A stretch of 46,182 nt of DNA from Jiulongibacter sp. (GTDB lineage: Bacteria > Bacteroidota > Bacteroidia > Cytophagales > Spirosomataceae). Position 1 is the stretch's first letter. Each line of letters starts with the position of its first letter. The translations under genes and the position numbers were made by a program. The stretch lies in assembly GCA_024645245.1 (NCBI GenBank), contig JAHEBN010000009.1, forward strand, positions 1 to 46,182, in the 5' to 3' direction. The notes under the pieces were generated by a model. That model saw nothing but the letters and a program-made list of their open reading frames with translations. It was not told the origin of the DNA and ran no database searches. Of this stretch, positions 38,702-40,894 are shown one piece after another.

Positions 38702-39580
38702 CTATTCAGCTTTTGGATGTGCTTTTTTATGAATTTCTTTTAATTTATCAATACTATTATGTGTATAAACCTGCGTGGCTGCCAGACTTGAGTGGCCAAG
38801 CAATTCTTTTATAGCATTTAAATCCGCACCTTTGTTCAACAAATGTGTGGCATAAGTATGCCGTAGAATATGTGGGCTTTTTTGTTTAAGTGAGGTAACT
38901 CTTCCCAAATATTTCTTTACCAATCTTTGAACAAAAACCGGGTATAATTTTTTCCCGGTATCGGTTAAAAATAAAAAGCCTGATTTTCCAAATTGCTCAT
39001 TTCTTAAATCCAGATAGGAATCCATTTTCGCAACCAATCCCCTGGTCAAAGGAATTTGCCGGTACTTATTTCTTTTGCCTAAAACCGTGATTTTATTGGC
39101 ATTAGAATCTATATCTTTAATTTCCAGACCGATCAGTTCCGACAATCGGATACCTGCTCCATAGAACAATTCCAAGACCATTAAATCTCTTATCCCGGAA
39201 AAATCATGCGTAAAAAAAGAATCATTCAGGAGATTATTAATAGATTTTTCTTCAACAAAAGACGGTAGTTTTTTCCCGGTTTTTAAAGATTTTACTTTTA
39301 TGGTAGGATCAACTTCAATCTTACTGAGTTTCAGCAAATAGGCATAGAAGGATCTTAAAGATGCAATTTTCCGATTAATACTTCGGGGATCATTCCCCTT
39401 CTCACTTAGGCTAACTATCCATGCACGTATCTCGTTAAAAGTTGCAGTTTGAGGTGTTTCTGTGTCGAACTCCCCTTCAAGAAAACCCTGAAATTGCAAC
39501 AAATCTGTGCGATAAGCTGTGATGGTATGCTTGCTGCTTCGTTTTTCGTATGTAAGGAAATTTATAAAAAAATCGACCAT
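38702..39580 (-). CDS. xerC: Tyrosine recombinase XerC
   Basis: A 292-residue site-specific recombinase that resolves chromosome dimers at dif. With the start at 39580 the catalytic residues are R145 (GAGIRLSEL), K169 (LGKRNK), H237-x-x-R240 (HILRH), H263 (LGHSS) and Y272 (VYTHNS), all present. An ATG at 39592 exists, but a promoter (39601-39632) would start transcription almost on it, and MVDFFINFLTYEKR is the family-like N-terminus. No dif site is seen in the window. Its position behind rpsU is a conserved arrangement in this phylum, so it is a housekeeping recombinase rather than a mobile-element integrase. Confidence 0.93.
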   Translation of the reverse strand: MVDFFINFLTYEKRSSKHTITAYRTDLLQFQGFLEGEFDTETPQTATFNEIRAWIVSLSEKGNDPRSINRKIASLRSFYAYLLKLSKIEVDPTIKVKSLKTGKKLPSFVEEKSINNLLNDSFFTHDFSGIRDLMVLELFYGAGIRLSELIGLEIKDIDSNANKITVLGKRNKYRQIPLTRGLVAKMDSYLDLRNEQFGKSGFLFLTDTGKKLYPVFVQRLVKKYLGRVTSLKQKSPHILRHTYATHLLNKGADLNAIKELLGHSSLAATQVYTHNSIDKLKEIHKKAHPKAE

Positions 39581-39600
39581 TTCTGATTTCAAGTCTTCCT

Positions 39601-39632
39601 CAAATATACGAGGAATAAAGCTATAGAATCAA
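39601..39632 (-). promoter_or_regulatory. Promoter for xerC
   Basis: On the minus strand: TTG (39630-39632), 21 bases, TATATTTG (39601-39608). The predicted start of transcription is near 39596, which leaves a short leader before the ATG at 39580. The -7 box lies inside a small inverted repeat (TTCCTC 39596-39601, GAGGAA 39610-39615). Confidence 0.55.
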
Positions 39633-39663
39633 AAATGGTCGAAATATAGAGAGACAATAGGAA

Positions 39664-39861
39664 TTAATCCTCCGTATGCTGTCCGTAAGTTCTCTGTTTG
39701 TAAGCTGCATTTAAAACTTCAAAGCGGCGTGATACAGATTTTTTCTCAAAAGCCTGGCGTGAACGCAACTGTCTCAAAATACCGGTTTTCTCAAACTTCT
39801 TCTTGAAACGCTTTAATGCTTTCTCAACTGACTCATTTTCTTTAACTTGTATATGTATCAT
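39664..39861 (-). CDS. rpsU: 30S ribosomal protein bS21
   Basis: A 65-residue basic protein, MIHIQVKENESVEKALKRFK at the start, typical bS21. It binds the small subunit near the 3' end of 16S rRNA. In Bacteroidota, bS21 with bS6 and bS18 helps hide the anti-Shine-Dalgarno sequence (published structural work on this phylum), which explains why most genes here have no Shine-Dalgarno. This gene is the exception: an extended one sits 6 bases before its ATG, pointing to feedback control. XerC follows 71 bases after its end or more. Confidence 0.97.
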   Translation of the reverse strand: MIHIQVKENESVEKALKRFKKKFEKTGILRQLRSRQAFEKKSVSRRFEVLNAAYKQRTYGQHTED

Positions 39862-39867
39862 CTTTTA

Positions 39868-39878
39868 CACCTCCTTTC
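39868..39878 (-). promoter_or_regulatory. Extended Shine-Dalgarno of rpsU
   Basis: The minus strand reads GAAAGGAGGTG, 11 bases that can pair with the CACCUCCUUUC at the 3' end of Bacteroidota 16S rRNA, and the spacing to the ATG is 6 bases. No other gene in the window has a comparable, well-placed site. Confidence 0.9.
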
Positions 39879-39896
39879 ATTTTGTAATTCGGGCTG

Positions 39897-39904
39897 CAAA
39901 GATA
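39897..39904 (-). promoter_or_regulatory. Candidate -7 element (TATCTTTG) for rpsU
   Basis: Perfect TAnnTTTG on the minus strand, 35 bases before the ATG, upstream of the Shine-Dalgarno. The nearest TTG is 24 bases further, slightly long. Confidence 0.45.
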
Positions 39905-39985
39905 TAAATAAGATTTTTGTATTCCATACAATCTTTTCGATTTGGAAAAATAAAAGCCAAATTTGCAGGGTAAACAAATCAACAA

Positions 39986-40894
39986 ATGCAAAAGGCGATA
40001 ATAGATTTAGGCACTAATACTTTTCATTTATTAATCATTGATGAAAATAAAAAAACCATCTACCGGGAATCTAATGCAGCCAAAATTGGGAAAGGTGGCA
40101 TAAATCAACAAGTCATCTTGCCGGAAGCAATGGATAGAGCTATAGGTGTGCTTCGGAGATGGTCGGAAAAAATAGTAAGGGATAACATTAAACCAGAAAA
40201 TGTCTTTGCTTTTGGCACATCGGCACTTCGAAATGCCAACAATGCCCATGATTTTACCGAAAGAGTTAAACAGGAAACCAGTATTGAAATCGAAATTATT
40301 AGTGGCGAAAAAGAGGCAGAGCTTATTTATTTGGGAGTTAAACAAGCCGTAGAAATCAAGGAAACCTCGCTAATAGTAGATATTGGTGGTGGCAGTGTAG
40401 AATTTATTTTATGTAATGAAGAAAAGGCACTTTGGAAACAAAGCATAGAGATAGGCGGTCAGCGATTGATGGAAATTTTCATGAAATCGGATCCGATTTC
40501 TAACTCAGCAATCGGCAAAATGGACGATTATTTTCGCGAAAAACTTTTGGACTTAATGAATGCCTGCCACCAATATCAGCCCACTGTAATGATAGGTTCA
40601 AGCGGTTCGTTCGACACACTAAATGATATGAGCTGGTATAAAAACATCGGAGAATTACCTCCAAAAGAAGTGGTTAGCTTCAAAATGGAAATACGTGAAT
40701 TTTATTTTTTCTACGAAAAATTGATATTCAGCAATAGGGAAGAAAGAATGGCAATACCAGGGATGGTAGAATTGCGGGTTGAAATGATAGTGGTGGCATC
40801 CTGTCTGATTAGATATTTAATTCAAACAATTGGAATTAAAGAATTGAAAATTTCCAATTTTGCTTTGAAGGAAGGCGTATTAAGTACTTTATAA
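39986..40894 (+). CDS. Ppx/GppA family phosphatase
   Basis: A 302-residue protein with the ASKHA fold of exopolyphosphatase and pppGpp phosphatase: DLGTNTFHLLI at 7-17, GTSALRNA at 77-84, SGEKEAELIYLG around 106-117 with the catalytic Glu, and DIGGGSVEF at 132-140. It is the short, two-domain form without the C-terminal HD-like domain of E. coli PPX. Substrate may be polyphosphate or pppGpp; sequence does not decide. The NFACT gene starts at the base after its stop. Confidence 0.92.
   Translation: MQKAIIDLGTNTFHLLIIDENKKTIYRESNAAKIGKGGINQQVILPEAMDRAIGVLRRWSEKIVRDNIKPENVFAFGTSALRNANNAHDFTERVKQETSIEIEIISGEKEAELIYLGVKQAVEIKETSLIVDIGGGSVEFILCNEEKALWKQSIEIGGQRLMEIFMKSDPISNSAIGKMDDYFREKLLDLMNACHQYQPTVMIGSSGSFDTLNDMSWYKNIGELPPKEVVSFKMEIREFYFFYEKLIFSNREERMAIPGMVELRVEMIVVASCLIRYLIQTIGIKELKISNFALKEGVLSTL

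Follow-up and report, generated by a model that had tools for sequence, protein, structure and literature searches.

The window, the whole 46,182-nucleotide stretch of Jiulongibacter sp. DNA that was analysed, carries rpsU on the minus strand at 39664..39861. The gene was taken from the list of open reading frames, and its product, ribosomal protein bS21 (65 aa), matches the Pfam family Ribosomal_S21 (PF01165) with 63.4 bits. It aligns without gaps to bS21 of Flavobacterium johnsoniae (7jil_z) over residues 1-57, and Tyr54 is present in it. The start codon, an ATG at 39861, is preceded by the leader TATCTTTGCAGCCCGAATTACAAAATGAAAGGAGGTGTAAAAG-ATG. Within this leader lies an extended Shine-Dalgarno (SD) sequence, GAAAGGAGGTGT (39867..39878, minus strand), which is the complement of ACACCUCCUUUC and allows 12 pairs with the 3' tail of 16S rRNA; the spacer AAAAG (39862..39866, minus strand) separates it from the start codon. 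An earlier note on this DNA had described an 11-mer, GAAAGGAGGTG, at 39868-39878 and 6 bases before the ATG. That 11-mer stands where it was placed, but the match is one base longer: the T that follows pairs with the A of ..GGAACACCUCC, which gives 12 bases and a spacer of 5.

Two further elements are found in the leader. The first is a putative promoter element, TATCTTTG (39897..39904, minus strand), 35 bases before the rpsU ATG, which fits TAnnTTTG, presumably the Bacteroidota -7 consensus. Similar elements are found in the leaders of all five clade relatives introduced below, and a sigma-70 scan returned no site at 39897-39904. The second is an upstream ATG (39878-39880), which shares the first G of the SD; the frame of 12 codons that begins there (39842..39880, minus strand) covers the SD and passes over the rpsU start in a different reading frame. 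This ATG is absent from the 60-base rpsU leaders of the five relatives. Downstream of rpsU, on the same strand and outside the regulation considered here, lies a gene for a XerC-like tyrosine recombinase (38702..39592, minus strand; Phage_integrase and Phage_int_SAM_1). The same neighbour on the same strand accompanies rpsU in 24 of 29 loci of the window's family, f1 (L231-L259; the other five gave no match), and at L182. As the recombinase is the neighbour both with and without the SD, the site has come or gone in place. A Ppx/GppA gene also stands close to rpsU in 19 of the 29 f1 loci, and is divergent in the window (38702..40894).

The organism's own 16S rRNA gene is missing from the assembly, which gave 0 matches to RF00177 and 0 to the conserved 3' motif, and the 16S 3' ends of relatives were used instead. 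The search covered 39 genomes, the window's own included, of which six gave matches, four of them extending to the 3' end. Two genomes of the same order (L111, L112) end in ACACCTCCTTTCT and two of the same family (L113/L117 from G020; L114 from G018) in ACACCTCCTTTTT, so that the tail in the four relatives reads ACACCUCCUUU(C/U)U. A 16S 3' end at odds with the leader had been named as grounds for abandoning the SD interpretation; the relatives' ends match it, the outermost base being C or U. The duplex (RNAduplex) has an energy of -21.5 kcal/mol with the ..UUUCU tail and -19.2 kcal/mol with the ..UUUUU tail of the two same-family genomes. Because the same-family ends read ACACCTCCTTTTT, the outermost pair in the window's family may be G-U. 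Both values pass the published cut-off of -13 kcal/mol, ours being obtained with RNAduplex and relatives' tails and the published ones with free_scan and 16S nt 1532-1544 (PMC9976891); all energies compared between genomes below were computed with the ..UUUCU tail rather than with each genome's own.

Translational feedback through this site would need a 16S tail that contains ACACCUCCUU in the organism itself. An indirect indication comes from a gene near 26932 on contig C123 (L025 1400-1700), which we name prfB, for RF2, from its sequence. Here AGGAGGT is followed by CTTTGAC in a +1 frameshift site, AGGAGGTATCTTTGAC, and the RF2 frame goes on in +1. Since prfB keeps its AGGAGGT frameshift site, the organism's own 16S rRNA has probably kept the CCUCC core. 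The prfB site is also a second place of SD/anti-SD pairing in an SD-poor genome, and the text of PMC8710568 discusses prfB frameshifting among the ways in which Bacteroidia use rRNA-mRNA pairing.

The leader of a relative adds to this picture. In G020, whose own 16S ends in ACACCTCCTTTTT, the rpsU leader reads AAAAAGGAGGTGT and forms 13 Watson-Crick pairs. This bears on whether the conserved block might have a different role, say in protein binding or in transcript stability at the mRNA's 5' end, as its position near the putative promoter and transcript start would allow. We regard such a role as very improbable, given that the block is the complement of the 16S tail, that in G020 it fits that genome's own U-tail, and that the leader has no unusual structure (no greater than in shuffled sequences, z 0.19).

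How exceptional the site is in its own genome was judged from 338 ORF starts in the window and 20 further genome stretches (395.5 kb). These starts were called mechanically from the first ATG, with a minimum length of 60 codons in the window and of 100 elsewhere, and some of them are wrong. By anti-SD pairing rpsU ranks first, at -21.5 kcal/mol against -10.9 for the next start. Among the 44 called ORF starts of the window itself the next best is -10.8, which bears out the claim that the window holds no comparable start. Apart from rpsU, a single ATG there has a strong core nearby (about 9010, -12.4), and the frame it starts has just 2 codons and lies within a longer one. SD sequences are otherwise scarce: counted against a mock window over the 338 starts, hits number 26 and 45 at -6, 9 and 16 at -8, 4 and 5 at -10, 1 and 3 at -12, and 1 and 0 at -14. 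The shortfall at -6 resembles the depletion that the text of PMC9976891 reports for Flavobacteriales. An exponential fit to the sampled start energies leads one to expect about 0.01 starts as strong as -21.5 in the sample and about 0.1 in the genome.

Pattern searches across the whole genome give a similar result, with one exception. AGGAGGT-N3-12-ATG occurs 91 times against 85 in the reversed control and RAAGGAGGT-N3-12-DTG 43 times against 52, both at control level; GGRGGTGT-N2-12-DTG lies above its control (66 against 44). With that qualification, the description of the genome as otherwise poor in SDs holds. We read 153 strong core-start pairs in context (for GGRGGTGT, the loci of 30 of the 66 matches) and asked for a plausible start, that is, at least 40 codons, no in-frame ATG upstream and no position within another frame of at least 120. 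Four pairs pass: rpsU (-21.5), L472 (-14.2), L006 (-13.4) and L008 (-13.4). L472 has a TTG start 19 bases from the edge of its stretch, the frame upstream lying outside, and L006 has 56 codons from a GTG. L008 is a GNAT acetyltransferase whose SD-like site falls in the last codons (KGGH) of the preceding gene and is probably due to chance. No second well-spaced SD of equal strength came to light, among the pairs read, at a plausible start of at least 40 codons; many such genes would have spoken against a special place for rpsU. Just under that cut, at position 165 (+) of L471 (contig C313), a site of -19.5 precedes a 39-codon frame over which no long frame runs, and this frame could be a small gene.

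Among ribosomal-protein genes, too, rpsU comes first of the 18 starts examined, the best other reaching -6.7. Of the remaining partners of the tail pocket, rpsF has -1.5 and rpsR -1.3, and rplI has -5.3. The value of -6.7 is the best of 14 starts in the S10/spc stretch, whose genes were named from their sequence and arrangement, except for L22, which a family search identified.

What such a site may do is known from F. johnsoniae. As the text of PMC9976891 (McNutt et al. 2023) describes it, initiation on rpsU mRNA is faster when the ribosomes are without bS21 or without its C-terminus, and this requires the extended SD. Replete ribosomes translate rpsU poorly, and output rises when bS21 or its C-terminus is lost; the bS21 residue mutated in that study is Y54. 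The same text holds that rpsU is typically the sole strong-SD gene in Flavobacteriales. It sets as criteria that rpsU be the best-pairing ribosomal-protein gene and that its energy be below -13 kcal/mol, and it counts about 20% of Cytophagales as having both, chiefly Cyclobacteriaceae, and no Bacteroidales (PMC9976891). The idea put forward in the earlier note, that bS21, bS6 and bS18 hide the tail and that bS21-free ribosomes favour rpsU, thus has the support of the F. johnsoniae work as far as its text goes.

We conclude, with a probability of roughly 0.86, that the 12-base site is an extended SD serving translational feedback on bS21. By analogy with F. johnsoniae, the 16S 3' tail would sit in a pocket formed by bS21, bS18 and bS6, as in other Bacteroidia ribosomes, so that ordinary mRNAs would use no SD. 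On 30S subunits without bS21 the tail would be free and could pair with the rpsU leader, and bS21 would be made; once bS21 is replete, the tail would be hidden again and initiation on rpsU would fall. The autoregulation proposed for this gene is in accord with the site, the 16S match and Tyr54, and it was already in print. As a circuit it is not new: control of rpsU by its SD here is a further instance of the published one, and for this organism it would hold by analogy.

Several observations count against feedback. One is the upstream ATG lying over the SD here, which might also draw off SD-independent initiation and thereby sharpen the feedback by bS21. Two others are the excess of GGRGGTGT near starts and the -19.5 site of L471 noted above. 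A further one is the distribution of the site, which is missing from 114 of the 134 parsed genomes of the order, with Tyr54 kept in 112 of those 114. It follows from this site-less majority that neither the pocket residue nor the supply of bS21 requires an SD on rpsU.

The distribution was obtained by order and family searches, which placed rpsU in 141 genomes (117 of 118, plus 24 more); 134 leaders were parsed, leaving out G075, G133, G066, G104, G115, G128 and G130. Pairing is below -12.5 kcal/mol in 20 of the 134, taken here as having the SD, and below -13 in 19. By family, the SD is found in 6/33 genomes of f1, 1/8 of f4, 4/7 of f19, 2/6 of f20 (one at -12.9) and 7/7 of f22, and in none of the remaining 17 families of the order. 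As families are grouped here, f1 lies outside Cyclobacteriaceae, because it is distinct from f19, the family of Algoriphagus (Cyclobacteriaceae); it is also distinct from f22 (Raineya and kin). All seven f22 genomes carry the site (L171, L172, L196, L293, L296, L319 and L323; six at -17.6 to -23.6 and L319 at -13.7), whereas for Cytophagales the published summary lists chiefly Cyclobacteriaceae (PMC9976891).

On a tree of rpsF, rpsR and rplI from 68 of 76 genomes (seven f8 members with small genomes and G130 were left out), the six f1 genomes with the SD (G000, which is the window's own, G018, G020, G021, G024 and G138) form one clade with support 100/99, and the presence or absence of the site requires 6 changes over the whole tree. 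In all six the segment GGAGGTGTA is invariant, with GGAGG 8-9 bases from the ATG, while the left extension varies. Among the genomes sampled, the rpsU SD is therefore a trait of a clade within f1, not of the family. That 27 of the 33 parsed family genomes lack the site could suggest a chance match or a decaying relic with no function. This is scarcely credible for a core and spacing kept in all six genera of the clade, at a strength expected for only about 0.1 starts in the window's genome.

Gln36 of bS21, which the first leaders had suggested as a partner of the SD, was rejected, since F. johnsoniae bS21 has Thr there and yet an rpsU SD is reported in the text of PMC9976891. Residue 36 is Q in 9, T in 6, A in 4 and K in 1 of the 20 SD genomes, and Q in 5 of the 114 without SD. 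The 80 named rpsU loci (65 with SD and 15 without) are a biased set, because one search peptide contained RQ. Viral contigs, scanned once with the window bS21, yielded no phage-encoded relative.

Within f1 the second pocket gene to consider is rpsR, whose leaders were compared in the 33 parsed genomes (L150, L260-L288, L370-L372). An rpsR SD at -8 or better is present in 0/6 genomes with the rpsU SD and in 15/27 of the others (Fisher 0.021); at -10 the counts are 0/6 and 13/27 (Fisher 0.06). Over all 68 rows of the tree there is no association between the two genes (p 0.18 and 0.42), and in independent pairs it is not significant and is lost after kinship correction. Both SDs occur together in six genomes, three in f19 and three in f22. 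That feedback on the pocket moved between genes in f1, with the SD on rpsU in the six-genus clade and on rpsR in 15/27 of the others, consequently strikes us as doubtful. If it were true, the pocket would be controlled via whichever protein limits assembly, and the family would offer a natural experiment on specialised ribosomes. An extended SD is also found on rplI (bL9) in two f1 genomes without the rpsU SD, L281 (G014) and L269 (G023).

These other genes lend some weight to the proposal that the SD simply gives constantly strong translation of rpsU, some ribosomes always having a loose tail, without feedback by bS21. Initiation can gain from an SD without regulation, in the order 30 of the 68 genomes on the tree carry one on rpsR (-8 or better), and rplI has one of -17.2 kcal/mol in G023 and -19.4 kcal/mol in G014. 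We consider this proposal unlikely: according to the text of PMC9976891, F. johnsoniae rpsU is low under replete conditions and raised on loss of bS21 or its C-terminus, and the excess length of the SD here, together with the rarity of SDs at the genome's other starts, points to a special use. Feedback on bS21 would account for that use. If it operates here, the proven case of specialised ribosomes extends to a family that the survey text of PMC9976891 apparently does not name, and relatives that do and do not carry the site at one and the same locus could show what bS21 feedback is used for and whether bS18 substitutes.

Among the titles and abstracts found on bS21, rpsU and the Bacteroidetes ribosome, none concerned the rpsU leader of the window's family; the supplementary trees of PMC9976891 may include members. 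SDs on rpsU and/or rpsR in Cytophagales are already in print in that paper's text, and rpsR (bS18) leaders with an SD have been reported for Cytophagales, Sphingobacteriales and Bacteroidales (Jha et al. 2021, as cited in PMC9976891 and PMC8710568). The cited rpsR leaders resemble the window's rpsU in placing an SD on the gene for a protein of the 16S-tail pocket, and differ in that here rpsR is without one (-1.3) and rpsU has it. In Chryseobacterium the text of PMC9976891 describes an rpsU leader complementary to an altered anti-SD, UCUCA. Complementarity to the 16S tail is thus shared with the window, whereas the tails of the four relatives have the usual CCUCC and only the outer C/U varies. 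The closest likeness is to F. johnsoniae itself. The experimental proof belongs to that species, whereas the window's organism is a member of Cytophagales, in a family different from that of Algoriphagus (Cyclobacteriaceae), and its own 16S gene is missing from the assembly. As far as the published text describes the system (PMC9976891), the two have in common an rpsU leader whose extended SD, with 9-13 pairs, is the strongest among the starts examined, depletion of SDs elsewhere, Tyr54 in bS21 and the same predicted feedback.
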